64,000 bases of DNA from Pseudohongiella acticola (GTDB taxonomy: Bacteria; Pseudomonadota; Gammaproteobacteria; Pseudomonadales; Pseudohongiellaceae), in contig NZ_MASR01000001.1 in the NCBI RefSeq assembly GCF_001758195.1, forward strand, positions 2,728,001-2,792,000. The letters are read 5' to 3'. A program made the position numbers and the translations under genes. Position 1 is the stretch's first letter. Each line of letters starts with the position of its first letter. The notes below the pieces were generated by a model. It saw nothing but the letters and a program-made list of their open reading frames with translations. It ran no database searches and had not been told where the DNA came from. Below, in pieces: positions 47,499-62,758 of the stretch.

Positions 47499-48875
47499 AT
47501 GAAGCACATTTTCACTCTGGTTTTATTGCTGAGCGTCAGTCTGAGAGCCAATGCCGACGTGTTCGCCGTTTTTCGCGATGCTGATGGCTCCACCAACTGG
47601 CAATACATCGCCAATACCAGCGCCAGCCTGCTGATCCTGATTCTGCTGGTGGTGTTGTTCTTTCTGGTGCGTGCCAACCTGCGTGCCGGCCGCTCAAACC
47701 GGGCGTTAAAAGAGATCAAGGCGACTCTGGAAGACCGCGTTGATCGCCGCACCCAGGTGCTGCAGGAGACCGCAGAGCAATTGCGTAATCGTGAGGCTTA
47801 CATCACCAGCATTGTAAATTCGATGCCGGTGATGCTGATAGTTGTCAATGAGCAACTACAGGTCACTCAGTGGAACAAAACCGCTGAAGACATTACTGGC
47901 CGCCCGTTTGCCGATGTCACCGGCAAAAACCTGTGGGCAGCGTATCCGGCGATTACCCTCACGGACGAACAGGTCGACAGCGTGCTGAGTTCCGGGCAGA
48001 CCCTGCGTCTGAAACACACGCAGCGTGGTCAGTACAGTTTTGATATCACCCTGTACCGGCTGCGGGACTCGGATGACACCGGTATTGTGATTCTGATCTC
48101 CGACATCACCAAACAGGTGAACGCCGAGAACAAGGTGGCCGAACGCGACAAACTGTCCGCACTGGGGGAGCTCGCGTCTGCCATGGCCTATGACATCAGT
48201 CTGCCAATTAATACCATTTTCCAGCATGTGTCGGATGCCCGTGAGAAGATCGAGGCAACGGATCTGGGGCCGGTACAATCGTTGTTGCTGCAGGAAGTCG
48301 AGATTGTCCGGCAGAGTGCTCAGCAGGCAACCGCAATTTCACAGAATCTGCTCGATTTTGCGCGTAGCCACAGCAATTCCAAACAGGTGGCTGACATCCC
48401 TGCCATCATGGACCAGAGCATAGCTCAGGCCAGTGATCTGTTCACTGACAGTGACGGGCTGGCGTTCAGGGACGTGGAAATACGCCGCAGCTATGCGGAT
48501 GAGCTGCCGCCCATGTCCTGTTTCCCGGCCGAACTGGAGCAGGCGTTTACGCGTGTACTGCGCAGTGCCTATTATGCACTCAAGGCCAAGGGGCCCGAGG
48601 CATCGTCGCCACCGCTGATTCATGTCGAGATCGGTCAGTTCTTTGATTCACTGTGGATCAAGGTATTGCACAAGGGTAAACCCTTGAGCGCGAGCGAACA
48701 GCTGGACATTTTTGAGCCCTTCTTTGTCAGCACCTCTGACACCGGTGCCTACCCGGTTGAGCACCGCCTGTCCTATCCGTACTTTATTATCACTGAACAT
48801 CACCGTGGTCATATGTCAGTGACTTCCGATGATCAGTTTGGCACCTGCTTCAACATCCAGTTGTCACTGGTCTGA
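47499..48875 (+). CDS. Histidine-kinase-like PAS protein with degenerate catalytic sites
   Basis: A 458-residue protein: signal-like N-terminus, one transmembrane helix (about 40-58), coiled coil (about 65-100), PAS domain (about 100-208), HisKA-like region and an ATPase-like C-terminal domain. The H-box reads GELASAMAYDISLPIN, with Tyr231 where the phospho-accepting His should be. The N-box asparagine is missing (RSAYYAL), and no DxGxG motif is visible (VLHKGKPLS instead). It is therefore probably a pseudokinase that binds partners or ligands. It overlaps the convergent Hen1-like gene by 12 bp. Confidence 0.78.
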   Translation: MKHIFTLVLLLSVSLRANADVFAVFRDADGSTNWQYIANTSASLLILILLVVLFFLVRANLRAGRSNRALKEIKATLEDRVDRRTQVLQETAEQLRNREAYITSIVNSMPVMLIVVNEQLQVTQWNKTAEDITGRPFADVTGKNLWAAYPAITLTDEQVDSVLSSGQTLRLKHTQRGQYSFDITLYRLRDSDDTGIVILISDITKQVNAENKVAERDKLSALGELASAMAYDISLPINTIFQHVSDAREKIEATDLGPVQSLLLQEVEIVRQSAQQATAISQNLLDFARSHSNSKQVADIPAIMDQSIAQASDLFTDSDGLAFRDVEIRRSYADELPPMSCFPAELEQAFTRVLRSAYYALKAKGPEASSPPLIHVEIGQFFDSLWIKVLHKGKPLSASEQLDIFEPFFVSTSDTGAYPVEHRLSYPYFIITEHHRGHMSVTSDDQFGTCFNIQLSLV

Positions 48876-49478
48876 TTCAAAACAGACCATCTGCGTTGAG
48901 CTGCCCAGCGTCGGGTGTGTCTCACCAATGTCTGCGTAGCGGGCAGTATAGCGGTGGCGCCCGGCAACGCCTTCGCACCACGACCTGAATTGCGCACGTG
49001 TCCATTCAAAAAAATGGCCCGGGTGACGAATTTCGTGATCGGCCATTCCATGAATCGGGTTGTATTCCTTATTGGGGGTGGTGATGATCACAAGCGGTGG
49101 TCGTAGTGCCCGAAACACGGTGTCTTCAACACGAGACAGGCGGCCAGGCTCGATATGCTCGATGGTCTCCAGCATGATTGCGGCGTCAATGCTGCCGTCA
49201 CCGCCTTTACTGTACCAATCCGTATTTTCAAAGGAGCCGCGGCACACCTTTAACTCAGCGGACGGGTTGAACATGTCAATATTCAGCGCCTGGCGCGCCT
49301 CTGCCAGAACGGTGGTGTCGATATCAATACCGATCAGGCGGGTTATCTGGTCGAGCTCGCGCAACCAGACCAGCAGTTCGCCATTGCCACAACCCAGGTC
49401 GACCACACAACGGGCCTCGCTGCCACGAATCTCGTGCAATACTGCGTCAAGTCGTTCACGGTGCAGATCGGTGCTCAT
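48864..49478 (-). CDS. Hen1-like RNA 3'-terminal 2'-O-methyltransferase domain protein
   Basis: A 204-residue class I methyltransferase. The SAM site is DLGCGNGE (27-34). The metal-binding set that defines Hen1 enzymes is present: E104, E107 and H108 in LETIEHIE, and H155 in RHPGHFFEW, with TPNKEYN between them. Bacterial Hen1 is usually a larger protein paired with the end-healing enzyme Pnkp; here only the methyltransferase half exists and no pnkp is nearby. The ATG at 49478 overlaps the stop of the GDPD-amidase gene (ATGA), indicating translational coupling; a GTG at 49511 is the alternative start. Confidence 0.8.
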   Translation of the reverse strand: MSTDLHRERLDAVLHEIRGSEARCVVDLGCGNGELLVWLRELDQITRLIGIDIDTTVLAEARQALNIDMFNPSAELKVCRGSFENTDWYSKGGDGSIDAAIMLETIEHIEPGRLSRVEDTVFRALRPPLVIITTPNKEYNPIHGMADHEIRHPGHFFEWTRAQFRSWCEGVAGRHRYTARYADIGETHPTLGSSTQMVCFESDQ

Positions 49479-51931
49479 GGTGTTGTCGCCGGCGCGCGGC
49501 GCTGTGGCCACGACTGTTCAATAGCGTACCCCAGTGCCAGAAGTTCCACGTCACTCAGATATCGACCTAGCAGTTCCAGCCCCATGGGCAGGCCGGTGTC
49601 ACTGAAACCAATGGGCAGAGACAGCGCCGGAAAACCCGAGTTCCCGCTCAGGCTGCAGTTGTTACCAGGCTGGTTTTCCCCGGTCAGCACCGGCATCGCG
49701 GAAATCGGCGGGTACGCAATCAGGTCCAGCTGCTGTGCATCCATTGCTGTGTTTATGGCCTGTTTCAGGTCATCGCGCGCCGCCATGGCGGCGTGGTAAC
49801 GTTGCGGGTCCTGCTCCGCGGCTGCGCTGCGAGTCAGTAACGGCGCTACCGCATCGTGATAGAGACCACTGTCCACAATCGCTTCCAGCGTCGGGTAGTC
49901 TGTGCTGCTGAATGTCTGCAGATACGTGTTCAGATCTGTTTCAAACTCATGGCCAATCAATCCGGAATTGCTGATTAGCGCTGCCATGTCCGGGATGGAC
50001 ATGCTGACGACCTCTGCACCCAATGTCTGTAGCTGAGTGAAGGCCTGTTCAATCAGAGCCTGTACCGCGGGCTCGGCATCCACCAGATAGGCATCCAGTC
50101 TGCCAATGCGTATGCCCTGCAGTGAGGCTGAACCCAGCGCCGGTGAGAATAACATGGGTTCACGATCCCTCATGACTTCGGTATCACCGTCTTGTGGGTC
50201 AAAGCCCGTGGTCAGGTCGAGCACGATGGCCAGGTCGGTAATGCTGCGGGCCAATGGTCCGGCAACGTCCTGCGTATGCGATAGCGGCATGATGCCATGA
50301 ATGCTGCTCAGCCCTTTGCTGGGCCGCAATCCTACCAAATTATTAAACGCAGCTGGAATACGGATGGAACCACAGGTGTCGGAGCCCATGCCTGCGGTAG
50401 CAAAGCTGGCGGCTACCGCTGCCGCGGTGCCCCCACTGGAACCACCGGGCACGTAGCGGGGGTCATACGGGTTGCGCGTCTGCCCGCCCAGAGAGCTGAT
50501 GCTGGTGATGCCGTAGGCGAATTCATGCAGATTGGTTTTGGCGAGTACGATGGCGCCGGCGTCCCGCAACAATTGCACCTGCGTGGCTTGCTGATTCGGC
50601 ACAAAGTCAGCGAGTGACCGTGACGCACCGGTGGTCGGCATGTCGGTAGTGTTGTAGTTGTCCTTGATCACCACCGGGATGCCATGCAGTAGACTGCGCG
50701 GACCACGGCGCTGACGCTCAGCGTCCAGGGCCCTGGCCTGGCTTAGGGCATTGTCATTGAGGCGCAGGATGGCGTTGAGTTGCGGGCCTTGCTGATCGTA
50801 GGCCTCGATGCGCTTGAGATACCGCTCAACCAGTTGCACAGCAGTCAGGCTGCCCTCTGTCATTTGCTGTTGCAGTGCCAGAATGCCGGTTTCAACGACA
50901 TCAATACTGTCTGTGACAGCTGGCGCTTCATGGGAAGGTGGCAGTAGCATATTCTGCGAGCCCATGACCTGACGCAGGCGGTCAGGGTAATCGGTAATGA
51001 TGCCATCAACGCCGATGCCGATCAGATGTGCCATGGTGGCGGTGTCATTGATGGTCCAGGTGATCACTTCCATGTTCAGTGCATGCGCCTGCCTGACCAT
51101 GTCGGTGGTGGTGAAAGGTTGATAGTCGTTGTCAGCAATGACGCCGTTCTGCGGCAGACCGTGCACCGGTGAGATGGCATTGGCGCCAAATGAGGCCGCA
51201 GCGGCCGGCAGATTGCAGTCAAAGTCGTCCATATCAATACCGCCGGTCCACGGCGATGCGCCCGGCTCGCCGCATTGCAGAAAGGACTGGGCATTGGACA
51301 GGGCAACAATGGGCAGCTCGGGTGCAAGCGCTTTCACTCGCATCAGCGCGCCCCAGTCGAAGCTCTGAATGCTGACCTGCCTGTGCATGCGATGGTGGTA
51401 GATCTGATCGATGACAGCGGCGACAAACTGGTCGCGTGGAGCGGTTTCGTGGGGCGCACCGGCTTCAACTTTGGTCTCGATATTCAGCATCACATCGTAG
51501 GCCTGGTGGCGTTTAACCAGGTCGAATACCTCACTGAGCAGCGCCAGTCGCGCGCCTGGCACGGTGCGCTGATCAGTATGCGGTTCAGCGCGCTGCGACC
51601 CGCAGTCCAGGGTGCGTATCTGGTCCCAATGCAGATCCTTGATGTATTTGCCGACATAGGGGAAGTCCGGGTCATCCGGAGTAGCCGGCTGTGTGTCCAG
51701 GCAGCGGTGAGGCAATACCTGTCGGTCGTGGGTGACCACCACATAACCGTCTTCGCTGACCTGAGTGTCCAGCTCCAGCGTGCTGACGCCAAGCGCCAGA
51801 GCATTGGCAAAAGCCTCCAGGGTACTTTCCGTGACCAGGCCGATGCCGCCGCGGTGGGCCTGCAGATCGAAAGGCTGGGCCTGAGTGGTCAGTGGCGCCA
51901 GGAGCAGGAGGGTGAGGCTGAGCAGTCGCAT
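49475..51931 (-). CDS. Glycerophosphodiester phosphodiesterase - amidase fusion, exported
   Basis: An 818-residue protein with a signal peptide (about 1-18). Residues 20-320 form a GDPD domain: H26-R27-G28-G29, E53 and D55, and H68 are the expected catalytic and metal residues, and ITDYPD closes the barrel. Residues about 345-810 form an amidase-signature domain with the Ser-cisSer-Lys triad placed at K423 (VIKDN), S498/S499 (GGSSGG) and S522 (GSIRIP). The two enzymes normally occur separately. The fused protein could cleave a substrate with both a phosphodiester and an amide, such as an N-acyl glycerophosphoethanolamine; that is speculation. Confidence 0.9.
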   Translation of the reverse strand: MRLLSLTLLLLAPLTTQAQPFDLQAHRGGIGLVTESTLEAFANALALGVSTLELDTQVSEDGYVVVTHDRQVLPHRCLDTQPATPDDPDFPYVGKYIKDLHWDQIRTLDCGSQRAEPHTDQRTVPGARLALLSEVFDLVKRHQAYDVMLNIETKVEAGAPHETAPRDQFVAAVIDQIYHHRMHRQVSIQSFDWGALMRVKALAPELPIVALSNAQSFLQCGEPGASPWTGGIDMDDFDCNLPAAAASFGANAISPVHGLPQNGVIADNDYQPFTTTDMVRQAHALNMEVITWTINDTATMAHLIGIGVDGIITDYPDRLRQVMGSQNMLLPPSHEAPAVTDSIDVVETGILALQQQMTEGSLTAVQLVERYLKRIEAYDQQGPQLNAILRLNDNALSQARALDAERQRRGPRSLLHGIPVVIKDNYNTTDMPTTGASRSLADFVPNQQATQVQLLRDAGAIVLAKTNLHEFAYGITSISSLGGQTRNPYDPRYVPGGSSGGTAAAVAASFATAGMGSDTCGSIRIPAAFNNLVGLRPSKGLSSIHGIMPLSHTQDVAGPLARSITDLAIVLDLTTGFDPQDGDTEVMRDREPMLFSPALGSASLQGIRIGRLDAYLVDAEPAVQALIEQAFTQLQTLGAEVVSMSIPDMAALISNSGLIGHEFETDLNTYLQTFSSTDYPTLEAIVDSGLYHDAVAPLLTRSAAAEQDPQRYHAAMAARDDLKQAINTAMDAQQLDLIAYPPISAMPVLTGENQPGNNCSLSGNSGFPALSLPIGFSDTGLPMGLELLGRYLSDVELLALGYAIEQSWPQRRAPATTP

Positions 51932-52025
51932 AGTCGGAGTCCGAGTTGTATTTATTCTGGAAATCGCTTGAGCGGTAGTCTACAACACTATTGCGAGCTT
52001 ATTTAATACACAAGGAGAGGGTGTT

Positions 52026-52217
52026 ATGAGAGAACTGAATTCGAAGGAAGTTGGGATCGTGTCGGGTGGTGGGGATGGTCCTCCGGCGACGATGGGGACC
52101 GGTTGTTTTTCAGCCATGGTATTTATTGGAATATCCCCGCTGCTCGGTCCAGCCGGTATGATCGGTGCCGCATTTAATGCCTTGGGTGCATGCGAGGGCG
52201 TAGATTTTACGTCTTGA
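52026..52217 (+). CDS. Double-glycine leader peptide, candidate class II microcin
   Basis: A 63-residue peptide with AAGGAG 5 nt upstream of the ATG. The first 15 residues (MRELNSKEVGIVSGG) follow the microcin V leader almost position for position: Met-Arg-x-Leu, Glu8, Val-Ser-Gly-Gly at 12-15. Cleavage after Gly15 would leave 48 residues, rich in Gly, Ala and Pro, with a hydrophobic stretch and two cysteines (in GTGCFS and GACEGV) able to form one disulfide. A 99-residue membrane protein follows 78 bp downstream. No C39-peptidase ABC transporter or HlyD-type protein is in the window, so export would need genes elsewhere. Confidence 0.72.
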   Translation: MRELNSKEVGIVSGGGDGPPATMGTGCFSAMVFIGISPLLGPAGMIGAAFNALGACEGVDFTS

Positions 52218-52295
52218 CGGTACTGCGATAACTTTGTCCTTGCCGTACGAAGAAGGTGATCGTATGGCTGGGGCATTCTATATTGGAGCAATGTC

Positions 52296-52595
52296 ATGAA
52301 ATCGGTGTTGAAACAGTTGCTAGATGCTGAACTAAGGTCTGCAGTAGCCAAGAGTTATAAATTGGAGCTATGGCTGGCATTTATCCTGGCGAGTATTTTT
52401 ACACTGATGTCATTTACTACGAACAACTTTAGTTGGGGGGGAATGTTGCTTGCCGTTCTGTATTTTTGGCACCGCTACGTAGTATTGAATGTGGCAAGAG
52501 CCTACAGATTTTCTGACACCGAGTCTGCATCTGCTGAGCAGAGCAAGACAGCGCCGGATGTCAGTGCCGATGATCCTCAGGTTGAACGTAAATAA
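52296..52595 (+). CDS. Small two-helix membrane protein, candidate immunity protein
   Basis: A 99-residue protein without recognisable family. Two hydrophobic helices (about 28-45 and 50-68) form a hairpin between a charged N-terminus and a polar, acidic C-terminal tail. GGAG precedes the ATG by 7 nt. An 11-codon frame from 52264 ends in an ATGA overlap with this start and might couple translation. The gene is clearly AT-richer than its neighbours. Small membrane proteins next to a double-glycine peptide are usually immunity proteins, which is the basis for the suggestion. Confidence 0.55.
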   Translation: MKSVLKQLLDAELRSAVAKSYKLELWLAFILASIFTLMSFTTNNFSWGGMLLAVLYFWHRYVVLNVARAYRFSDTESASAEQSKTAPDVSADDPQVERK

Positions 52596-52605
52596 TTTGC
52601 CTGCC

Positions 52606-52872
52606 TCAATCTGACTGGCCAATAATGCGTTTGAGTAATTCCTGATCGCTGAACAGGTTGGTCAGGGTCCAGCCAAAGCGGACCACGACCAGGTCCCGGG
52701 ACGGCACAATATAAAGGCGTTGTTTGCCCAGACCGGCCGCCATAAAAATGTCCTCCCCCAGTGCCGGCATGACGTTATCTCCCGTCGGTCGGCCATCCTC
52801 AGGTACGGCGTCCAGTGCCGGGTCATAAGAGCCCGCAACAGGCCGGTTCAGCCATCAGGTCAATCCGTAGCC
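52606..52872 (-). pseudogene. Remnant of a serine hydrolase (beta-lactamase family) C-terminus
   Basis: The minus-strand frame ending with TGA at 52606-52608 encodes about 83 residues that read like the end of a class C-type serine hydrolase: WLNRPVAG, MPALGEDIFMAAGLGKQR, LYIVPSRDLVVVRFG and a final helix. Just upstream, in the same frame, GYGLT precedes a TGA at 52855-52857 where relatives have a tryptophan, so one base change (TGG to TGA) would explain the stop. The catalytic N-terminal region is absent upstream, where the frame holds unrelated sequence. The stretch up to 53033 contains no other gene. Confidence 0.7.
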
Positions 52873-53033
52873 CTGATCAGCGCTTCGCTGATCTGTTGCA
52901 ACCTGATCTGGTAGGAGCGCCGCTCGGGATAGAGTGTGACACAGCTGTCGAGAAAACCGCTTGAGCCGGTATACTGGCCACGTGCCTGCAGCCATTGTGA
53001 AAGCCCGGTTAATGGCAGGCAAGTTCAGTCCGG

Positions 53034-53717
53034 CTACGCCTCAGGTGACGCCCGCAGGGAAACATGCGCCGCCACGTGCTCATACAAGCGGCACAACTGT
53101 TCCTGTTCCGCCCCATCAACCCCGGCCAAAAGCCCCAGCAGTGGCGTATGACCGGCGATGGCGACATCAGTCCCACCGGCGAGCCGAAGCACGCCCAGGC
53201 CTTCACCGGCCGGAAACAGGCTTGCCTGCCCATGGCGCTGACAGTCCTGCCACAGCGCAGGCGTGGTATTGATGGCATGCAATACCAGCACACCGCCAGC
53301 TCTGATCAATGGCAGCCAGCGAGATACGGTGGCTGCCGCGTCAGCTTCTTTTTGACAGTCGATATGCAGCAGATCGATGCTCTGCGGCGCAAATCGTTGT
53401 TCAGGTTGGTCCGGGGCAGCGTCCAGTTGGTAGGAAAAACCGGCATAGTGATCCCGGTTGTAACGGTTGCTGGTGTCCGGGTCGTCGGCTTTGCCAAAGG
53501 CGTAAACCAGGCTGTCCACCTGATGGTCTTTGATCGCCTGGCAGAAGGCAAAACTGGCCTGCTCGCCGTCGCCCAGGGTCAGGTCAACCACCAGGGTCGG
53601 GTGAAGGCTCGCCGCCAGGTCATAGAGCAGCGGCAGATGCGGTAGCCAACGGTCATGACGCTGTGGCCAGGGAAGTTGGTAACGTTCAAGTGATTCCGGC
53701 AGGTAAAGATCGTTCAT
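53034..53717 (-). CDS. Class I SAM-dependent methyltransferase
   Basis: A 227-residue protein with a Rossmann-type pattern: VVDLTLGDGEQASF as the SAM strand, LLHIDCQKEADA and a late GGVLVLHAIN strand. This set is seen in cluster-associated sugar methyltransferases of polysaccharide loci, which cap or decorate glycans. The methyl acceptor is not known. The ATG shares one base with the stop of the tandem glycosyltransferase gene. Beyond its TAG, the same frame continues past two stops for about 50 sensible codons, so the protein may have lost a C-terminal tail. It is the last intact gene of the export operon. Confidence 0.75.
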   Translation of the reverse strand: MNDLYLPESLERYQLPWPQRHDRWLPHLPLLYDLAASLHPTLVVDLTLGDGEQASFAFCQAIKDHQVDSLVYAFGKADDPDTSNRYNRDHYAGFSYQLDAAPDQPEQRFAPQSIDLLHIDCQKEADAAATVSRWLPLIRAGGVLVLHAINTTPALWQDCQRHGQASLFPAGEGLGVLRLAGGTDVAIAGHTPLLGLLAGVDGAEQEQLCRLYEHVAAHVSLRASPEA

Positions 53718-55696
53718 CAGCGGTTATATCCTCCATCGTCTATCCAGGGGTCACGATCTTCACCGGCAAACCGGTTAAAACGCTGACGGCCGCGACTGCA
53801 GGATTCTGCTATAAACGGCATCACCTGGCGGGGCAAGGGCCCAAAAAATTGGGGTTGTCGTCGTACCGCCTGATAGTCGTTGCCACGGATCTGGCGAAAT
53901 TCCTGCTGGAACTGCTGCAATTGGTCGGGCAGCTCGTTGCGGTAGCTGGTAGTGACACCGCCGTGATACTGGTGGAAGACACCTTCGCCCCAGAGCAGGT
54001 AGAGCGGCGACTGTTCACGGCGGACCAGCCTTTGATAAAGATCCATATTGACGCTGCCGCCGCCGGGTGAGCGGAAAGCCGTGTCGGCGCCACCACTTTC
54101 CAGAAATGCCTTGCGGCTGCAGAAAAGCAGGTGCGACTCCATCGCCGGATGCAGTAGACCGTGTGGATTGGCGCCACTGAAGCAGCCGATATTGAACAGC
54201 TCGTAGGGTGACTGCGGCCAGCCGCTGTTCTGCAACAGCTCGCGTTCCCGGGATTGATCATAACCGGCCTTGCTGCTGACTTCCTGGCGCTCGCTGCCCA
54301 GGTGGTAGCCCGGTACGCTGACCAGGCAGTCGGGATCGTTTGCATACAGCCAGGCCACCTGCTGCAGAATGCCCGGGGTGAGCATGTAAGCGCTGTCGAT
54401 AAGAATGCCAATCACATCGCCGCGGGCCATATTGACAGCTTCGTTTAGTGCATTAGCAGGAGAAGTGTCAGGTGTCTCTCGTAATTGGTGCCGGATGTCA
54501 CCTTCGAAGTCGTCAATCAAAGACAAAGGTAGTGGCGACGGTGAAGGATTCTCAATCACAATAACTTCATAGTTCAGCTCCGTGCCCAGTGTCAGGTAGC
54601 CCGGCGACAGCGAGTGCAGCGTATGACGAAATTGGTCGGGGATGTTGTGCACGACACAGACAATACTGATTTTGGGTGCAGTCCTGATGAAGCCTTGCCA
54701 ACGGGATTCATCGTGCCCGGACGGTTCATCTTCCCAGAACTCACGCTGCAGTGTTGCCAGGCGGTGGTATCTGTTCTCCGCCATGCGCACGGATTCGGCC
54801 AGATGTGGCTCAGCATGACGGCCTACCGGCCCAAAGAATATAGGCTGTCGGCGCAAGGCAAAGAACGCGTTCTGCCAGATTTCCTGCAATTGTGTCTTGA
54901 AACCCAACACACGTTGACTCTGTGCCTCGTCGGAGCGGGTAGTGACGCCACCGTGATACTGATGGAAGCTGCCTTCACCGGGTAAAACATAGACATGGCT
55001 GGCCACACACAAACCCAGCTGACGCAAAATATGCAAATTGACAGCACCGCCGCCGGAAGCGACAAAGCGGGGGTCTGCGCATTGCTGCTCAATCAGGTGG
55101 GAGGTTTTGCAAAACAGGGCACTGGCTTCCATAAACGGCTGCAAGAAGCCGCGCTTGTTGCCGGGGGAAAAACAGGCATGACGGAACAGGCGATAACCAT
55201 TCTGTTGCCAGTCTTCTTCCCGGAACATCTGCTCCTGCCAGTTCAGTAAGCCCGGCAGGTCTTCGACCAGATGCTGTTGCTTTTGTCCCAGGTGATACCC
55301 CGGCACGGCGACCAGCGCATTGTTCTCATTTTCAAGAATGCACAGCGCCTGAGCCAGGACGCCCGGAGTCAGCATCTGGGCACCGTCCAGAATCAGGCAG
55401 GCGAATGGGGCACGGCATTGCTCCAGCGCAAAGGCCATGGCGGCGACAGGTGAAACACCCGATTCGGTGCGTAGATAGTAGCGGAAGTTCCCGGGCAAAG
55501 CCTGAACACTCGCAGTCAGCATGTTATTGCCTGAGTCGTTTTCGACGACAACAATCTCGTAGTCCGCTTCGTCGATTGCATCCTGATATTCAGCGCTCAG
55601 CGTCGTTAATGTGCGTGACAGAGCCTCCGGCATGTTCCAGGCAATGACAACGACAGAGAGTCGTGGTGTTGGTTCAGTTTTCATAGCCGTATACAT
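53717..55696 (-). CDS. Tandem family 2 glycosyltransferase (two GT2 domains)
   Basis: A 659-residue protein with two homologous GT-A domains (about 10-320 and 335-640). Each opens with a nucleotide-binding strand (LSVVVIAWN; ISIVCVVHN), has an acidic site followed by A-x-M-L-T-P-G (LDGAQMLTPG; IDSAYMLTPG) and ends with a nearly identical GEG-x-FHQYHGGVTT element. It therefore probably transfers two sugars in succession or builds a repeating disaccharide on the cytoplasmic face. The single-domain enzyme at 57446-58492 is a third copy. Start is Met1 or Met5; the gene overlaps the sulfotransferase gene by about 20 nt. Confidence 0.88.
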   Translation of the reverse strand: MYTAMKTEPTPRLSVVVIAWNMPEALSRTLTTLSAEYQDAIDEADYEIVVVENDSGNNMLTASVQALPGNFRYYLRTESGVSPVAAMAFALEQCRAPFACLILDGAQMLTPGVLAQALCILENENNALVAVPGYHLGQKQQHLVEDLPGLLNWQEQMFREEDWQQNGYRLFRHACFSPGNKRGFLQPFMEASALFCKTSHLIEQQCADPRFVASGGGAVNLHILRQLGLCVASHVYVLPGEGSFHQYHGGVTTRSDEAQSQRVLGFKTQLQEIWQNAFFALRRQPIFFGPVGRHAEPHLAESVRMAENRYHRLATLQREFWEDEPSGHDESRWQGFIRTAPKISIVCVVHNIPDQFRHTLHSLSPGYLTLGTELNYEVIVIENPSPSPLPLSLIDDFEGDIRHQLRETPDTSPANALNEAVNMARGDVIGILIDSAYMLTPGILQQVAWLYANDPDCLVSVPGYHLGSERQEVSSKAGYDQSRERELLQNSGWPQSPYELFNIGCFSGANPHGLLHPAMESHLLFCSRKAFLESGGADTAFRSPGGGSVNMDLYQRLVRREQSPLYLLWGEGVFHQYHGGVTTSYRNELPDQLQQFQQEFRQIRGNDYQAVRRQPQFFGPLPRQVMPFIAESCSRGRQRFNRFAGEDRDPWIDDGGYNR

Positions 55697-56426
55697 TCAG
55701 CATGTCGCCGCAGCAGTCCCGGATGTAGGTCAACTCCTCGTCCGTCAGTATGCCACGATAGCGGTCCTGTTCGTCGCCTACAACGATATCTTCAGGAAAC
55801 TCCTCAATGGGCTTTTCGCCCAGGAAGGCTAGAATGCCATTTACCGTTTCCAGAGGAAAGTCGCACAGGTCCCGATACCTCAGTTCGTGAACGCGGTCAG
55901 GAAAGCCTTTACGGTACTCGTTAACAAGGTGTACGCTTTCCAGCCAGTAATTGATGGCGCCACGGAGTGGCTGCCGGGCTAACATGCCTCCAGCCCTGAG
56001 GCTGGCCACGACATTGTAGGGATGTCGATGTATATGTATGAAACGCGATTCAGGATACATAGCGCTTAATAGCAGCATGCCATACACATTCTGCGGTGAT
56101 TTATCGAACCAGCGCTTGCCGGAATGGTTGTTATTGTCCTTGAATATACGCGCGTAGTTATCCATCAGGTCTTTGCGATGACGTCCCTGCTGCAGGGTGT
56201 AAAAAAAGTCAAATTCGTTGAGCCCATCCAGTTCTCTGTGCTGTCGAAATACTTTGTTCTTTAGATAACTTCTTTCGAAATCTTCTGTGCCATAGGGCTC
56301 CGCCCAACGAAAAAAGTGGGTTTCTTCAGGTGCGCACAATCTGGGGTGTCTGCGCAATATGTCACGTAACAACGTCGTTCCCGAGCGCACGCTGCCAACA
56401 ATGAAAAACGGGTGCTTACTGCTCAT
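55674..56426 (-). CDS. Sulfotransferase family protein
   Basis: A 250-residue enzyme. The 5'-phosphosulfate loop of PAPS sulfotransferases is GSVRSGTTLLRDIL (about 11-24), and the 3'-phosphate region is FIHIHRHPYNVVASLR (about 128-143). LRYRDLCDFP fits the substrate half. It should transfer sulfate from PAPS to a sugar hydroxyl during polysaccharide assembly in the cytoplasm. It overlaps the PhyH gene by 11 nt and the tandem GT2 gene by 23 nt. Confidence 0.87.
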   Translation of the reverse strand: MSSKHPFFIVGSVRSGTTLLRDILRRHPRLCAPEETHFFRWAEPYGTEDFERSYLKNKVFRQHRELDGLNEFDFFYTLQQGRHRKDLMDNYARIFKDNNNHSGKRWFDKSPQNVYGMLLLSAMYPESRFIHIHRHPYNVVASLRAGGMLARQPLRGAINYWLESVHLVNEYRKGFPDRVHELRYRDLCDFPLETVNGILAFLGEKPIEEFPEDIVVGDEQDRYRGILTDEELTYIRDCCGDMLNVYGYEN

Positions 56427-57438
56427 CGGTATTTGGCTCTTGTGATCCAGTCTGTTGTTTCTGTTGCGTCTGTCGCTGCCTGCGATATTCTGATTCAGCC
56501 CGAAGCGCGTGGTTCAGGTGGGTCTCGGGCAGTCTGTGATACTCGTCACTCCAGGGTACTTCGGTGTAGTCATGCTGTTGCCAGTAATAACAAAACCGTT
56601 TGTCTTTCCAGCCCTGATAGATCGAATCCCACGACTCGCGCGCGAAATGTGGCTCCAGTACCGGAGGTGTTAACGCGTCGCCGTCGGGTAGATAGCGGTA
56701 ATCGACCGACAGTCGCAGATATTGGCTATCGTGATTGGGCAGGGCGCGGTGCACGGTTGTCGAAGAAAACAGAATCACGTCTCCCGGTCGGTAATGGGTG
56801 CTGACCCAGGGCAGGCGTTGCAGATGGTCCGGTAACACAGCCTGTCTGTTGCCCGGTCCAAGATGGAAATCCAGCGGCAGAATGGTATTGCCCTGGTTCG
56901 AGCCTTGCAGAATGGCCAGACCACCGCGTGATACTGGTACATCGGTTAATGGAATCCAGGCAGCGGTCAGGCGCAGGCTACCCTGATTATTGGGGAAATC
57001 CTGGTGCGGTGGCGTGGTGGCGGCATCATGTTCAGGCCAGCCAAAACGGCAGATCGAGAGCGGGTGAGGAAAACAGTCACTGGCCAGAACCCGTTGCATG
57101 ATCTGCAGCAACACCGGTTGATGTGCCAGCGCATAAAATGGCTCCAGGCGCATGACTTCGTCATAGACATCAAAGAAGCCTTCGGAGGCCTCACCTTCGC
57201 GCATCGGGGAGCGAATGGTAGTGATCGAGCCGGTGTCTTCGTCATTTTTTATCCAGCCATGCTTGTGCAAAATACTTGCGATGGATTGGCGCAGCCGGGT
57301 GACCGCCGTAGCTGGCAAAAGATTGCGAAACAGCAGGTAACCGTTCTTTGTCATACGGGTTTGCAGAACCTGGTCCGGTTCGGCTATCGAAGACGCCTGC
57401 ATTGGTTGTAGCGGCGGGCTGTTGGCATCAACACTCAC
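56416..57438 (-). CDS. Phytanoyl-CoA dioxygenase (PhyH) family protein
   Basis: A 340-residue Fe(II)/2-oxoglutarate dioxygenase. The iron ligands are H-x-D in PPHQDFPNNQG and a distal His in TTVHRALPNH, with the 2-oxoglutarate Arg nearby in YLRLSVDYRY. PhyH proteins in secondary-metabolite and glycan loci hydroxylate or otherwise oxidise small molecules; the substrate here may be a sugar or its substituent. I start at GTG 57438, after GGAGGAG and next to the stop of the GT2 gene; the ORF could also begin at 57522 inside that gene. Confidence 0.82.
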   Translation of the reverse strand: MSVDANSPPLQPMQASSIAEPDQVLQTRMTKNGYLLFRNLLPATAVTRLRQSIASILHKHGWIKNDEDTGSITTIRSPMREGEASEGFFDVYDEVMRLEPFYALAHQPVLLQIMQRVLASDCFPHPLSICRFGWPEHDAATTPPHQDFPNNQGSLRLTAAWIPLTDVPVSRGGLAILQGSNQGNTILPLDFHLGPGNRQAVLPDHLQRLPWVSTHYRPGDVILFSSTTVHRALPNHDSQYLRLSVDYRYLPDGDALTPPVLEPHFARESWDSIYQGWKDKRFCYYWQQHDYTEVPWSDEYHRLPETHLNHALRAESEYRRQRQTQQKQQTGSQEPNTDEQ

Positions 57439-57445
57439 GTGGTAA

Positions 57446-58492
57446 TCACTCCTCCGGCGGCACGTCTGGAAAACGTTTCGGATGCATGACACGTTTGGCC
57501 GCCTGTTCACTGTAATTCTCAATCAGTTCGCCTTCCATGGCGCGGCGACGCTTGGCTGAATGGTGAACAAATCGCATGACACTCGGGTGCAGGGCGCCCA
57601 GATAGACTGGCTCCTTTTGGGCAGGCGAATAATACTTCCCGCGCAGAGCGTGGTACTGGTCAAAATGGCGCTGCATCATGGCATCTCGCTCTTCGCTGCC
57701 ACTGGTTGTGGCGCCACCGTGGTACTGGTGGAAGGAGCCTTCGCCGGGCAAAAATACATGTCGGCTTTTTTCAAGTTCCAGCGCACGTTTATAAAAATCG
57801 AGATTGCACTGACCGCCGCCGGATTCAGTAAAACCGGTATCGAATCCGCCCAATTGGTCGAACATCTGCCGGGTTATGCCTAGGCTGTTGCTTTCCCCCA
57901 GTGGTCTGAAAAAGCCGCTGCGGCTGGTGCCGCTGAGACAGGCAATGTCGAGCAGCCTGTAGCCGTCATCGCGCCAGTTCACACTTGCCAGCAACTGTTG
58001 CTCCTGCTTTTCGTTGTAACCGTTAAGCACCGCTTTCTGTTGCAGCTCGTCACCCAGATGATAGCCGGGCACAGAGACAACGGCAGAATCATATAACCGG
58101 TTGGCCAGTAGCAGATGGTGGACCAGTCCGGGGGTGACCATGCGGGCGCCGTCAACCATCAGACACAGCTGTTCTCCGCGTGCCTGTGCAACGCCAAAAT
58201 TCACGGCATGCACCGGCGTGGGCAAATTCTCGTCGCGCAGAAAGTAGCGGATTGGCCCCCTGATCTGTTTCAACGCCTCGTTGTCTATATTGGCGTCGGA
58301 ACGATTCTCGACTGCAATAATTTCGTAGTCGTCTGCGCTGACGTGTTGCTGAAAGTCAGTGCTCAGCGTGTACAGTGTATTCAGCGCCTGACGCGGCATA
58401 CGGTAGAACACGATCACTACGGAGAGTTTTGGTGTTCTGTGCCTGCCGGTCAGATAAGTCCTGATTCTGTTCAGCATCCCGCTCCCGTTCAC
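57446..58492 (-). CDS. Family 2 glycosyltransferase
   Basis: A roughly 345-residue GT-A enzyme. It has LSVVIVFYRMP at the start, the acidic site and motif VDGARMVTPG, GGGQCNLDFYKRA and the element GEGSFHQYHGGATT shared with both domains of the tandem GT2 protein. It should add a sugar to the growing glycan in the cytoplasm. The frame opens with GTG 58492, sharing one base with the upstream stop; ATG 58477 after GGGAG is an equally good start. Confidence 0.88.
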   Translation of the reverse strand: MNGSGMLNRIRTYLTGRHRTPKLSVVIVFYRMPRQALNTLYTLSTDFQQHVSADDYEIIAVENRSDANIDNEALKQIRGPIRYFLRDENLPTPVHAVNFGVAQARGEQLCLMVDGARMVTPGLVHHLLLANRLYDSAVVSVPGYHLGDELQQKAVLNGYNEKQEQQLLASVNWRDDGYRLLDIACLSGTSRSGFFRPLGESNSLGITRQMFDQLGGFDTGFTESGGGQCNLDFYKRALELEKSRHVFLPGEGSFHQYHGGATTSGSEERDAMMQRHFDQYHALRGKYYSPAQKEPVYLGALHPSVMRFVHHSAKRRRAMEGELIENYSEQAAKRVMHPKRFPDVPPEE

Positions 58493-59235
58493 TATTCACT
58501 CTCCGGTTTCGGCAGGTCCGGAAGTGACTGCCAGTCCGTGTCAGTTGTCGCCCGTACACTTTTGTCGTCGCGGCCATTGCTGTAGTAGTACAAGGCTATC
58601 GATTTTCGCGTCACGCCAGCGGGGCATGTTAGCCGGCGCGGGTGACCGTGGAAGGATGTGTTATCCGTATTAAAAATCACACAGCGGCCGAATTCTGGCC
58701 GAATATTGCGTTCACAGCGGCTCATGTCTCTGGACCACAGCTCCAGATTGCCACCGTATTGGTCTTGCCAATCATGATTGAGAAAAAGCAGCAGATTGAG
58801 CCTGCGGTCAAGTTGGTAACGCTCCTGCCTGGTAAAATCAGCATGAACGCCCAGCACCCCGCCGGGGAGTATCTGGTGCAGGCCGCCCCCCTGCAGCGAG
58901 GGATCGGGTAGCAGATTCTCAATGCCGGTGAGGCGTTCGAGAAAGTGCAGGAAGGGGCCACTGTTCAGTGCATGGATCAACTGCCTTGCCTGCAGAGGCA
59001 TTTCCAGTTCGCTACGCAGGCCCAGTTTTGCGTACTGCATGTCCTGGTTGTTTGAGCGTACATGCATGCGGCGCCAACTGTCGGTCTGTTCCGGTGTCGG
59101 AAAGGTCTGCAGAATCTGCTCCAGAAAACCGGCTTCAACAACATCTTCCATCACGATATGCGGGAAGGGTTGAGCTGCCATGTAATTCTGATGCAGTTGA
59201 TTGGCCAGTTCATAGAGGCGGTGGTAGTCAATCAT
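58492..59235 (-). CDS. 2-oxoglutarate/Fe(II) oxygenase (prolyl 4-hydroxylase-like)
   Basis: A 247-residue dioxygenase with the H-x-D in VHADFTRQ, the distal His in TSFHGHPRRL and the co-substrate Arg in TRKSIALYYYS. LNLLLFLNHDW and GGNLELW give the double-stranded beta-helix core. Similar enzymes hydroxylate proline, sugars or lipids; in a polysaccharide operon modification of a sugar or its amino-acid substituent is likely. It overlaps the coiled-coil sulfotransferase gene by 8 nt. Confidence 0.88.
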   Translation of the reverse strand: MIDYHRLYELANQLHQNYMAAQPFPHIVMEDVVEAGFLEQILQTFPTPEQTDSWRRMHVRSNNQDMQYAKLGLRSELEMPLQARQLIHALNSGPFLHFLERLTGIENLLPDPSLQGGGLHQILPGGVLGVHADFTRQERYQLDRRLNLLLFLNHDWQDQYGGNLELWSRDMSRCERNIRPEFGRCVIFNTDNTSFHGHPRRLTCPAGVTRKSIALYYYSNGRDDKSVRATTDTDWQSLPDLPKPESE

Positions 59236-60481
59236 TGCTGTCCCTTTGAGCCGGTTGCTGCCGGTTGAGCCAATGTATTGCCAATCGACCAGGCACCGAA
59301 TGCGCGAGCGCAGTCCACCTGGCTTCCAGCTCTCTGATCCGATGCTCCAGGGTGTTTATATAGCGGGCTGCGTTGCGTCGTTCGCCGTCGGACCACTCAA
59401 GCGCTTCGGCGTGCTTCTTCAGCTCTTGCGAAACAGCGGTCAGCTGCTCAGATACCGATATCAATTGTTCATTCATTAAATTGTGTTCGTGCCGGGCAAT
59501 CTGCAGGTCTTTGTCTCGTTGCACGACAATGGATTCGGCGTGATCGTATTCGCGGTTGCGTTGCTGCAGCTGTTGATCTCTTTCGTCGATTGTCGACAGT
59601 GCGTGCTCGTGAAGTTGTCCGATCCGGAACTGTTCGCGGTGAGATGCCAGCAGCGCTTGCGTTAACGCGTCAACCACGGTCAGTGGGTCGGCTGCGTCAA
59701 GCTTATGTGCAGCAGGGCTGCGGCTTGAGGTGCCTTCAGCACTCAGGTATTGCTGGTATAGCGCCTGCGTTTTTTGCCCGATTCCGCTGACCGGCTCGCC
59801 GCCGCTATTGCGATGGTGTCGCAGGTTATTGTCGATGACTGAGCTCAGTGCTTCCGTCTGTCCGTCACATGAAAACCCGAGTTCGGTGAGGGCAGTCAAT
59901 AGCCGTGCCGGGCCATTTTCCAGCAACGCATCGTAGTCAACGAACCGGCGCGGCAGGTCGGTACTGTGCAATACGGCTTCCTGCATGTAGACAGACCACA
60001 ATAGCGCGGCCTGAGACTCCGGCAGACCATCGCGCTGTGCCAATGAGGCTGCGACAGCCTGGGGCGCCCTCAGCGCCAGCAGGCACCCTGCTGTCCAGCC
60101 GCATTGTTCGGCAGCACTGAGCCAGAAAGGCAGCAGCCGGCACAGTCGAGGATCCTTGATCACAGCAGGTAAGCGCGCGGCGTAGCTTGCCTGCAGGTGC
60201 GAGACAGCTGCGCTCATCAGCCTGGTAATGTCAGTTCGCTGCAACCAGTCTGGTGGAAGTGGTGATACCGAACTCCAGTGCAGTCCAAGTGTTTCCAGTA
60301 TCTGCTCATTCAATTCAACCACCAGGCGGTCTTCCCAGAAGCCCCGGCTATTGACCTGGCTGTCGTCCGCTACCCGGTCGTCCGCAATGCTGAAACCGGC
60401 GCGGTAGCAGGCTTCGGCCAGTGCTGACGTGCCACTGCGATGCATGCCGCAGATCAGCAGAATGTCTGGTGTGGCGCTCAC
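59228..60481 (-). CDS. Sulfotransferase-like protein with C-terminal coiled coil
   Basis: A 417-residue protein. Residues about 5-235 resemble a sulfotransferase: the phosphate loop is CGMHRSGTSALAEACYRAG and the second site includes IKDPRLCRLLPFW. Residues about 265-400 are a long Glu/Gln-rich coiled coil (HALSTIDERDQQLQQRNREY and following heptads), followed by a short basic end. The coiled coil may tether the enzyme to partners or measure chain length, as coiled coils do in some polysaccharide termination proteins; that is inference. It overlaps the ABC ATPase gene by 4 nt. Confidence 0.8.
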   Translation of the reverse strand: MSATPDILLICGMHRSGTSALAEACYRAGFSIADDRVADDSQVNSRGFWEDRLVVELNEQILETLGLHWSSVSPLPPDWLQRTDITRLMSAAVSHLQASYAARLPAVIKDPRLCRLLPFWLSAAEQCGWTAGCLLALRAPQAVAASLAQRDGLPESQAALLWSVYMQEAVLHSTDLPRRFVDYDALLENGPARLLTALTELGFSCDGQTEALSSVIDNNLRHHRNSGGEPVSGIGQKTQALYQQYLSAEGTSSRSPAAHKLDAADPLTVVDALTQALLASHREQFRIGQLHEHALSTIDERDQQLQQRNREYDHAESIVVQRDKDLQIARHEHNLMNEQLISVSEQLTAVSQELKKHAEALEWSDGERRNAARYINTLEHRIRELEARWTALAHSVPGRLAIHWLNRQQPAQRDSND

Positions 60482-61203
60482 GATGTTGCTCCTTTGTCGG
60501 CGGTCAGTTTGCGCAGGTGTTCACGATAGTTTGTCACCACCGTCTCCGGTTCGCCCTGCTCTACCGTGCGCCCGTTTTCAATCCACACAACGCGCGAGCA
60601 CAGGTTTCGGATAGCAGGTTCATTGTGAGCCACCAGTACCACGGTTCTGTTGGATAACATGCGCTCTCGCAGCACGGCGGCGGATTTTTCCCGGAAGCCG
60701 GAGTCACCAACGGCAAGCATTTCATCAATCAACATGACATCCGGGTCCGCACTCATGGCAATGGCAAAGCCGAGGCGTGCTGACATTCCCATGGAATAGG
60801 TTGCCACCGGCGCATCAGCGTAATCCTCGAGTTCGGCAAATTCCATGATTTCGGGAATTCGTGCTTCTATCTCATCCCTGCCCATGCCGAACAGCATGCC
60901 GCTCATGATGATATTGTCTCTGGCCGACAGTTGTTCCAGAAAGCCCAGTCGCAGAGACAGGATCACATAGCTGGCCGGGCGCCTGACAAGTTCACCACGA
61001 TCCGGGCGTATGATGTCGGCCAACAGTTTTAGCAGCGTGGTCTTGCCTGCACCGTTTCTGCCAATGATGCCTAAAGTCTCGCCTTTGTACAGTTGCAGGC
61101 TGACATCATCCAGTGCCCAGTAACATTCGTCATTGCCGAACAGGCGGCGACGGCGGTAGCAGACGCCAGTGTTTTTCAGGTCAAGCAGCAACTCTTCGCT
61201 CAT
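60478..61203 (-). CDS. ABC transporter ATP-binding protein (Wzt-type, no carbohydrate-binding domain)
   Basis: A 241-residue ATPase of the polysaccharide/polyol phosphate exporter branch. Walker A is GRNGAGKTT (about 47-55), the signature region is YSMGMSARLGFA, Walker B is VMLIDEMLAVGD and the switch histidine is in VLVAHNEPA. Wzt proteins that read terminal sugars carry an extra C-terminal domain of about 150-200 residues; this one stops after the ATPase, so the export is probably not coupled to recognition of a capped end. It pairs with the permease gene, overlapping it by 4 nt. Confidence 0.93.
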   Translation of the reverse strand: MSEELLLDLKNTGVCYRRRRLFGNDECYWALDDVSLQLYKGETLGIIGRNGAGKTTLLKLLADIIRPDRGELVRRPASYVILSLRLGFLEQLSARDNIIMSGMLFGMGRDEIEARIPEIMEFAELEDYADAPVATYSMGMSARLGFAIAMSADPDVMLIDEMLAVGDSGFREKSAAVLRERMLSNRTVVLVAHNEPAIRNLCSRVVWIENGRTVEQGEPETVVTNYREHLRKLTADKGATS

Positions 61204-61958
61204 TGATTCAACCTCGGGTACAGACGATCGTACCGCACCAGCATGTAATATCCCGCCAGCAGTGTTGCCAGACTGATACCCAGAATGCTCAGCAAGGAGG
61301 TCAATGAAGGGCTGTTATGGTGGACCAGAACGTCGCGGTAAGCATTGATCAGCGCGAACATGGGGTTCATGTTAAACCATGGTTGCAGGCTCTCGGGAAT
61401 GGTGCTGGTGCCGTAAAAAACACCTGAAAGGAAAAACAGCAATGTCATCATTTTGTCGAAAATCAGGCGCAGATCCGGAATGAAGGGCGTCACTGCCGCG
61501 ACCAGAAATGACGCCGATACCACCAGCAGCAACTGAAGGGGTACCAGGCCTAACAGCCAGAACCACTGGAAGGACACCCCGCTGCGCCAGGCGTGAAACA
61601 CCAGCAACAGTCCCAGTATCAGGAGAAACTTGACGGTATTGGCGGCGACGGCGATGCCGGGGAACACCAGTTTTGGCAAATATACTCGATTGATCAGGCC
61701 GTTGTTGCTGTGGATGCTGTCCATGGAGGCCCGTACGGCGCCATCAAACCATTTCCAGACCACCAGGCCGGTGATCAGTATGTCCAGGTAGTGCGGTGTG
61801 CCACGATCGAAAATCAATCCGAAGACAATATAGAACACGCCCAGATACAAAACGGGTTCCAGTATCCACCAGGCGTAACCCATGTAAGCGCGCGATGATT
61901 CAGTCTTTAACTGAGCGATAGCGCGATACAGGACAAAATCCATGTCTTTGCGGTTCAT
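61200..61958 (-). CDS. ABC transporter permease (Wzm-type)
   Basis: A 252-residue inner-membrane permease with six helices and an N-terminal amphipathic stretch. It is an ABC-2 polysaccharide exporter subunit: WILEPVLYLGVFYIVFGLIF near the start, LINRVYLPKLVFPG in the middle and the WFNMNPMFALINAYRDVLV region after the fifth helix. With the ATPase it would move a lipid-linked glycan to the periplasmic face. It is the first gene of the nine-gene minus-strand operon and lies 41 bp from the divergent sulfotransferase gene. Confidence 0.92.
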   Translation of the reverse strand: MNRKDMDFVLYRAIAQLKTESSRAYMGYAWWILEPVLYLGVFYIVFGLIFDRGTPHYLDILITGLVVWKWFDGAVRASMDSIHSNNGLINRVYLPKLVFPGIAVAANTVKFLLILGLLLVFHAWRSGVSFQWFWLLGLVPLQLLLVVSASFLVAAVTPFIPDLRLIFDKMMTLLFFLSGVFYGTSTIPESLQPWFNMNPMFALINAYRDVLVHHNSPSLTSLLSILGISLATLLAGYYMLVRYDRLYPRLNQ

Positions 61959-61999
61959 TGGCTGCTCACCTGTGGGTGCGAATGGGTTAGAATGCGTGG

Positions 62000-62758
62000 A
62001 TGATAATAGCCAAAGCCGGAGAACTGCTGCAACGTCTGATTGTCCGCCGCGCCAAGCAGCCGACAGGCATCTGTGTGCTCGGTATGCATCGAAGCGGTAC
62101 CAGTTTTGTTACCGGTTCGCTGCAGTCGGCAGGTGCTTCCCTGTATCGTTTTCATAGCCATAATCCATTCAACCTGAAAGGCAACCGGGAGAATCCCGAT
62201 GTGGTTGCGCTGAATGACGACGTGTTGCATGCCAATGGCGGAAGCTGGGATCAGCCACCGTCAAAGGTGAACTGGCACCCGGAGCATGATCAACGTGCAA
62301 TCGAGATCCTGACGGCGTTGTCGGCCTATCCGGTATGGGCATTCAAAGATCCTCGCACATTGCTGACGCTTGAAGGCTGGCAACGGCATGCGCCTGATAT
62401 TCGATATGTTGGTATTTTCCGGCATCCGGCGCGCGTAGTGCGCTCGTTGCACAGCCGGGATCAAACGCTGAGCCATGAAGACGGTGAACAGCTTTGGCTG
62501 GCGTATAACCAGCGCTTGCTGGCCCTGCGTCAACGTCAGGAATTTCCGCTGCTGTGCTTCGACGTGGCACCGGATATTCTGCTGCAGCAGCTCCAGCGGG
62601 TTTGCACCGGGCTCGGGCTGGACGGCGACAGGGCGACAGACTTTTTTGAGCATACCCTGATAAATCAGTCGGCCGGCAATGACTCCTCTGAGCAACAGGT
62701 GTCAGAGCACTCGCTGGCACTGTATGCCCAGCTGCAGGGTTACTGTAGTCTGAGCTAG
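62000..62758 (+). CDS. Sulfotransferase family protein
   Basis: A 252-residue protein with the PAPS phosphate loop LGMHRSGTSFVTGSL (about 27-41), a second site FKDPRTLLTLEGW and the 3'-phosphate helix FRHPARVVRSLHSRD. It is the third sulfotransferase-type gene of this locus and the only gene on the plus strand here, sharing a 41-bp divergent promoter region with the exporter operon. Its TAG and that of the glycosyltransferase gene share the palindrome CTAG. Confidence 0.85.
   Translation: MIIAKAGELLQRLIVRRAKQPTGICVLGMHRSGTSFVTGSLQSAGASLYRFHSHNPFNLKGNRENPDVVALNDDVLHANGGSWDQPPSKVNWHPEHDQRAIEILTALSAYPVWAFKDPRTLLTLEGWQRHAPDIRYVGIFRHPARVVRSLHSRDQTLSHEDGEQLWLAYNQRLLALRQRQEFPLLCFDVAPDILLQQLQRVCTGLGLDGDRATDFFEHTLINQSAGNDSSEQQVSEHSLALYAQLQGYCSLS

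Follow-up and report, generated by a model that had tools for sequence, protein, structure and literature searches.

The window, by which we mean the whole 64-kb stretch analysed (G000:C1:2728001-2792000, from the 3.6-Mb genome of Pseudohongiella acticola, here G000), contains at 52026-52217 of the plus strand an ORF with an ATG start that encodes a 63-aa peptide. A ribosome binding site, AAGGAG, was read directly at 52012-52017 (plus strand), and 78 bases after the peptide ORF a second ORF on the same strand (52296-52595), designated immA, encodes a 99-aa protein, the proposed cognate immunity protein. The peptide starts with a 15-residue double-glycine leader, MRELNSKEVGIVSGG (52026-52070, plus strand), in which M1, R2, L4, E8, V12, S13, G14 and G15 are present and which, judged by the consensus, we take to be of the microcin V type, as an earlier note on this DNA had claimed. 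The remainder, a core of 48 residues plus the stop codon (52071-52217, plus strand), carries two cysteines, Cys27 and Cys56, again in agreement with that note. About 45 bases 5' of the start lies GTCTACAACACTATTGC (51978-51994, plus strand), a promoter-like box with invariant columns across six aligned loci; boxes of this type precede the type A and type B loci of the genus (types are defined below), resemble an extended -10 promoter element and presumably act as such, and related boxes were seen by eye in seven more loci at a similar distance from the ATG. The pair had also been described as richer in AT than its surroundings, and the GC content was indeed 0.47-0.48 at 52000-52749 versus 0.53-0.63 in the remaining segments of 48000-56000. 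For the product of immA, said earlier to be a two-helix protein, a single-sequence AlphaFold2 model gave long helices at residues 2-42 and 48-82, the model being weak (mean pLDDT 71.7, pTM 0.38). A 123-aa antisense ORF over the pair (51980-52351, minus strand) clusters with an antisense ORF of G008 and was discarded as a shadow of the conserved peptide.

To the left, a minus-strand gene (49475-51931), which we place outside the system, encodes a glycerophosphodiester phosphodiesterase (GDPD) domain fused to an amidase domain; it is present in most of the genus and lies next to a type A or type B cassette in six species, forming the conserved left border of what we call an exchange site. Beyond it, a PAS-domain, sensor-like gene lies at 47499-48875. 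The earlier note had also seen a decayed gene beside the pair, a claim that found no support: to the right, the minus-strand open pieces of 82 and 54 aa at 52609-53024 match no Pfam family, the 82-aa piece matches no NCBIfam family, and a decayed serine hydrolase, considered as a candidate, was not supported either. The region 53034-63831 holds methyltransferase, glycosyltransferase and ABC-transporter genes, with others recognised by eye only, and the gene content of sister species differs on this side of the pair.

A search of 56 genomes with the peptide gave 42 rows; we examined 16 of them (the window's own and 15 that were fetched) and left out the 26 weak others. Strong homologues (E 1.1e-11 or better, 49-75% identity) were found in six members of the genus, G014, G008, G009, G006, G002 and G001, and together with the window peptide they make up type A. 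One row, from G022, showed no leader, and a 65-aa leader peptide from another genus (G021) was left out of the counts below. A homologue of the 99-aa protein adjoins the peptide in 7/7 type A loci, so that leader-bearing relatives do occur and have the same neighbour gene. In the seven aligned peptides, M1, R2, E3, L4, E8, V12, G14 and G15 of the leader and T22, M23, C27, F28, G35, S37, P38, G41, P42, C56 and F61 of the core are invariant; in immA the invariant residues centre on an FWHR signature. dN was lower than dS in all four computable pairs of sister-species peptides (0.03/0.13, 0.11/0.45, 0.04/0.90 and 0.04/0.17). Between the window and G014, for which dS was not computable, the peptide genes differ by 29 synonymous and 15 other codon changes and the immA genes by 28 synonymous and 37 other changes. 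These data bear on the suggestion that the peptide is a chance ORF or a non-functional relic, for which its shortness and the lack of a family over cut-off would speak. We rejected this suggestion as practically without chance of being right, since the conservation excludes it: besides the dN/dS values, the ribosome binding site, the conserved box and the seven paired homologues, the strict leader motif in a frame of 35-150 aa occurred once in the real window and in none of 200 simulated 64-kb sequences, generated by a first-order chain derived from the window.

The core had been called unrecognised, and no Pfam or NCBIfam family matched it above cut-off; against Pfam MccV (PF17508) the window peptide scored 13.9 bits (E 0.083), below the gathering cut-off of 27. 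PHROGs gave nothing for the peptide. immA had no match in Pfam or NCBIfam, where it resembles no tested immunity protein, and one weak match in PHROGs (E 0.024), to a family of unknown function. Three further type A peptides were searched, two of which had no family match and one of which matched Mersacidin. Among the other core types, subthreshold matches to bacteriocin models included MccV for type B (E 0.0026), Bacteriocin_IIc for types B, C, F and G, and CTB or cerein models for types B and D. All family matches were subthreshold, and some were of unrelated type, namely DUF6132, RHS, pATOM36 and PRK09628. Against solved structures, a profile search gave the peptide mostly designed repeat proteins as matches, which we attribute to chance.

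The presence of a C39-peptidase ABC exporter in the genome had been set beforehand as a test on which the microcin reading could fail. Such an exporter was found (E 5.7e-35), 2.34 Mb from the pair, with an HlyD adaptor gene 5' of it (PF13437 and PF16576 over cut-off, the NCBIfam HlyD models below theirs), and the same genome encodes a TolC-type protein (TIGR01844, 297.7 bits, cut-off 225.15). The catalytic residues C38, H111 and D127 of the exporter are intact, and their spacing of 73 and 16 is that of CvaB, with its reference residues Cys32, His105 and Asp121 (PMC9746304); the triad with this spacing is present in all 13 exporter copies of the genus. A second, weaker Peptidase_C39 match (26.9 bits) lies in a 327-aa frame at G000:C2:336061-336438 (stretch L002). 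The exporter occurs in 13/15 genomes of the genus and was not found in G012 or G002. None of the type A, type D and two partner queries matched G012; type A and type B peptides are present in G002, which is a MAG of 120 contigs; and in G004 the exporter is present and no peptide was found. An exporter near the peptide is usual in described class II microcins (PMC10233263). It is linked to the peptide for types D, F and G in some sister species and for an Acinetobacter homologue, and is unlinked in the genome studied here; we did not count linkage as required for export. Relatives of the exporter on plasmids include one of Shewanella oneidensis (43.5% identity), followed by two genes annotated as bacteriocin-like peptides, and proteins annotated CvaB (36%). 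The exporter in the genome and the paired homologues in relatives, the two points on which the earlier note had said that its reading could fail, support the microcin reading, from which we infer killing and immunity.

By scanning fetched stretches and by homology searches, we collected 27 leader-bearing peptides in 13 of the 15 genomes of the genus, with the Shewanella, Serratia and Acinetobacter peptides left out of this number. Sorted by eye, they fall into types A (7 peptides), B (6), C (1), D (7), E (2), F (2) and G (2), where types E, F and G come from the fetched stretches only, and type C from the type A search only. The genome studied here has the type A peptide and the type C peptide. 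The latter is encoded at G000:C1:2099770-2099946 (L036 3978-4247, minus strand) as an 89-aa precursor that begins with the leader MRVLNHEEVCLVSGG and whose C-terminus looks, by eye, like that of type B; a hydrophobic frame of 71 aa comes next. Small hydrophobic partner frames lie 3' of types A, B, C and D and of the F/G pair; no partner was recognised for type E, which was looked at in G001. In G014 and G001 (L101 and L104) the exporter is followed by two tandem leader-bearing peptides and then by one cysteine-containing hydrophobic protein of about 100 aa, an arrangement like that of a two-peptide bacteriocin.

Different peptide genes occupy the same few chromosomal sites in related species, which we read as exchange. 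Site 1, that of the window beside the GDPD-amidase gene, holds type A in G000, G008 and G009 and type B in G007, G011 and G013. In G003 the amidase gene is present at this site with no recognised cassette, and a tmRNA gene and a smpB-like gene (the latter by eye) are near (L080 4627-4993). In an ungapped comparison of G007 (type B) with G009 (type A), DNA identity is 100% from -75 to -1, 80-87% through the leader and 20-53% per 15-base step from codon 16, and the BLAST match (92% over 2547 bases) stops 47 bases into the peptide gene. The break at the leader/core junction indicates that the two genomes differ in the core and what follows it. The earlier idea of an acquired cassette is broadly right, with the correction that the pair occupies an exchange site, where a leader-bearing peptide is found in five sister species as well, and that the exporter is encoded far from it. 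In G008 and G009 a diverged immB, the type B partner gene, lies 3' of immA. That the immB of G009 is a leftover of the G007 cassette was considered and rejected: it is 39% identical to the immB of G007, whereas the shared flank is 92% identical, so it is not a recent leftover of that allele.

At site 2, the left flanks of G005 and G002 are 92.5% identical over 3.9 kb; G002 then has a type A peptide and G005 a type D peptide with its own 94-aa hydrophobic frame, after which identity returns (90%) at immA, which G005 has kept. G005 is a genome of 700 contigs, and this case awaits confirmation. Also at site 2, the immA genes of G002 and G006 differ by three changed codons (dS 0.02) and their peptide genes have a dS of 0.45, a pattern of near-identical immA and diverged peptide that fits exchange of the peptide gene alone. 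At site 3, G001, whose record bears no MAG mark, matches G002 on both sides minus 423 bases, comprising the promoter region and the type B peptide gene, and has kept immB. At sites 2 and 3, then, the old partner gene has outlasted a peptide gene that was replaced or deleted. In all, an immA or immB gene unaccompanied by its peptide was seen at three positions in the genus, and apparently also on a plasmid of A. soli. Orphan immunity is described in E. coli, with its origin, by loss of the toxin or gain of the immunity gene, stated as unknown and gain favoured for many plasmids (PMC12546727); Pseudohongiella offers two in-place cases of peptide loss or replacement with the partner retained. Recombination in the leader is described for pneumococcal bacteriocins (PMC4860687). 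In the literature searched, we found nothing linking a microcin with Pseudohongiella and nothing on chromosomal exchange sites or an acyl operon (see below) in this setting, and an earlier mention of the families is possible.

In some bacteria this type of leader and exporter has other roles, and the products could be secreted signals or biofilm factors rather than toxins, with the small membrane protein as a receptor or accessory. For example, double-glycine proteins act in biofilm formation in Synechococcus elongatus (PMC4997328), the PAS-domain gene of the window may encode a sensor, and killing by the pair is something that we deduce from sequence features. However, about seven unrelated cores in one genus, hydrophobic partner frames 3' of types A, B, C, D and the F/G pair (none recognised for E) and the retention of partners where the peptide is gone speak against this, and the PAS gene also stands beside the amidase gene in G010, G004, G002 and G001, where no cassette was seen; we regard this explanation as improbable. 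Even less credit is given to a contact-dependent system like Cdz of Caulobacter, in which a pair of glycine-zipper proteins stays on the cell surface and kills on contact by means of a type I exporter, with a small membrane protein conferring immunity (PMC5380434). The cores of types B and D are GxxxG-rich by eye, and the tandem peptides after the exporter in G014 and G001 would suit such a system, but the type A core has, by eye, no extended glycine zipper and does have two conserved cysteines, and the window has a single peptide and a single partner.

We therefore return to the microcin reading. The pair very likely consists of the gene for a class II microcin that resembles class IIa and the matching immunity gene, and this marine bacterium very probably uses it to make a secreted bacteria-killing peptide and a protective partner. 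In the mechanism that we propose, the distant C39 exporter would recognise the double-glycine leader and the precursor would be cut after Gly15; the resulting 48-aa peptide, probably with a Cys27-Cys56 disulfide, would be exported via the HlyD adaptor and the TolC-type channel and would act on related competitors by damaging their inner membrane or some target within it. The two-helix partner, presumably located in the inner membrane of the producer, may block this harm, to judge from its place beside the peptide gene, its size, the helices predicted for it and its persistence where the peptide is gone. Class II microcins have a leader with a GG or GA cleavage motif, GG in this case, and are accompanied by an adjacent small inner-membrane immunity protein of 51-216 aa; here the neighbour has 99 aa and two predicted helices and is linked in all seven loci. 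One exporter would serve about seven core types in the genus, and core and partner genes would be swapped at a small number of positions in the chromosome, with the promoter region and leader in front of them conserved and the partner sometimes outlasting the peptide gene.

When plasmids were searched with the window peptide, six from A. baumannii matched (41% identity across residues 1-56, E 1e-3), of which one, pMC23.1, was opened. On it, the gene for a 61-aa peptide precedes those for a cupin/JmjC_2 protein, HlyD and a C39 exporter, and just 5' of the peptide a 76-aa frame, absent from the gene table, matches the immA profile (E 1.4e-9 among 512 ORFs; L116 4712-6402). The homology with the window peptide extends beyond the leader into the core, with the common pattern C-x2-A-x2-F-x-G-[IV]-SPL-x-GP-x4-GAAF-x-A-x2-AC. 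An immA homologue on a small plasmid of A. soli (E 9.6e-17; L117 3299-3514) is likewise absent from the gene table, and no leader peptide was found among the listed plus-strand frames around it. The order peptide-cupin-HlyD-exporter is common to pMC23.1 and mcaABCD of A. baumannii ATCC 17978, a likeness that concerns gene order. The mcaABCD genes make Mcc17978, which inhibits E. coli and Acinetobacter and is active without contact, and in the tests described, which covered three genes downstream of the microcin, the cupin-like McaB alone was protective (PMC10333792). Immunity in loci of this kind may therefore depend mainly on something other than the immA homologue; should ATCC 17978 have an immA-like frame upstream, it would lie outside those tests, and the homologue on pMC23.1 may be an overlooked part of microcin-type loci. 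No cupin gene lies beside the window pair. Parts of the peptide-cupin stretch of pMC23.1 are matched at the DNA level by a plasmid of Moraxella catarrhalis (NC_011131.1 182-680) and by two plasmids of A. baumannii that bear the annotation 'bacteriocin', pointing to related loci in other Moraxellaceae. On a Serratia plasmid, HlyD and a C39 exporter have as their neighbour a hypothetical protein of 78 aa, which is a weak match to the type A profile (E 2e-4; L115 4330-4566).

In the genus, the exporter gene is the last of an operon-like row that comprises genes for a fatty-acyl-AMP ligase (FAAL), an acyl carrier protein (ACP), a divergent LpxL-like acyltransferase (PF03279, E 2e-9), HlyD and the exporter. 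In loci not cut by contig ends, FAAL is present in 11/11, the acyltransferase in 11/12 and ACP in 9/11. A gene for a ferritin-like diiron protein, with a weak match to R2-like oxidase, lies divergently beside FAAL in all nine loci in which that side is visible (own locus, L003 12695-14375; 8/8 sister loci, L118-L125), and a TIGR02466 oxygenase gene was beside the diiron gene, among the loci seen, only in G000, G003, G011 and G013, the stretches of G004 and G006 being too short. With a few candidates scored per genome, the acyltransferase was found in 5 of 293 genomes of the order (E 1e-20), all Pseudohongiella and five of the six genus genomes sampled, and in 1 of 369 genomes of the class (E 1e-12), the one studied here; a plasmid search found none on plasmids.

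Of the 27 peptides, which are not independent and were typed by eye, 21 end in serine, as compared with 21 of 307 other ORFs of at least 200 aa in the fetched stretches, and in class IIb microcins a C-terminal serine is the siderophore site (PMC10233263). The window peptide has the terminal serine only, the Gly/Ser-rich C-terminal siderophore motif of class IIb being absent, and the Shewanella and pMC23.1 peptides, near whose exporters no FAAL is listed, have no terminal serine. From the operon at the exporter, the terminal serines and the class IIb precedent we propose, at low probability, that the peptides are modified before export: the FAAL-ACP-acyltransferase trio may acylate them, perhaps on the C-terminal serine, as a siderophore is attached in class IIb. 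Besides the serines, the order of the row across the genus, the constant diiron gene and the acyltransferase found in Pseudohongiella only favour this tentative idea. Several observations oppose it. In six of the 27 the last residue is N or W, including the type A peptide of G001, although G001 has the trio; G004 lacks ACP and the acyltransferase, and no ACP was seen in G006; and the trio could serve an unrelated lipid. In addition, the aligned acyltransferases have an invariant HMGD, and the HX4(D/E) motif of LpxL-type acyltransferases is not plainly present. In its fullest form, which we consider doubtful, the proposal would make these peptides lipid-bearing microcins, whose unrelated cassette cores share one leader and whose terminal serine would be acylated before export by FAAL, the carrier protein and the genus-specific acyltransferase, the diiron enzyme perhaps altering the acyl chain. 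We found no literature joining a fatty acyl-AMP ligase with double-glycine peptides; a paper on fatty acyl-AMP ligase and microcin dealt, by its abstract, with enzyme inhibitors, and none of those on lipidated or acylated microcins or RiPPs concerned class II microcins, judged by title and abstract.

Of the known systems, microcin V (CvaC-Cvi-CvaA-CvaB-TolC, class IIa) resembles that of the window in its leader type, a small core with cysteines, a small partner next door, and a C39 exporter with the same Cys-His-Asp spacing, an HlyD adaptor and a TolC-type protein. The window core, however, is shorter and without significant similarity to it, and the window system is chromosomal, with an unlinked exporter that lies in an operon with acyl-activation genes and is only about 36% identical to proteins annotated CvaB. 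The pMC23.1 locus shares the core homologue, the immA homologue and HlyD with the C39 exporter, adjacent there; together with Mcc17978 it differs from the window in the linked exporter, the cupin/JmjC_2 gene (protective in Mcc17978), no FAAL listed nearby and no terminal serine. Class IIb microcins (H47, M and E492 type) have the same class of leader and exporter and are likewise chromosomal; they too use a single exporter for several microcins and have a terminal serine and extra genes beside the exporter, but here there is no glycine/serine-rich tail and no siderophore-attachment gene was recognised, the linked genes being those for FAAL, ACP and the LpxL-like acyltransferase. The pneumococcal blp bacteriocin-immunity region is comparable in that a single exporter handles double-glycine peptides, the set of bacteriocin and immunity genes varies, leaders recombine and immunity genes outnumber bacteriocin genes (PMC4860687), whereas it is Gram-positive and forms one clustered, quorum-controlled locus, as opposed to the several dispersed sites in Pseudohongiella. 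Cdz has a type I exporter, small hydrophobic peptides and a membrane immunity protein (PMC5380434) and differs in its two-peptide surface aggregates and linked genes, and type A has no extended glycine zipper. Judged by these features, the pair would work like a class IIa-type microcin with an unlinked exporter.

Class II microcins have long been known from enterobacteria. Beyond these, tested examples are described from Acinetobacter and Vibrio cholerae (PMC13101503). Our analysis adds a marine genus in which about seven core types appear to depend on one exporter, with natural swaps and deletions of the peptide in which the partner is kept. The acyl-gene operon on the exporter side raises, in addition, the testable idea of fatty-acylated microcins, which, if true, would be a fatty-acid counterpart of the siderophore microcins.
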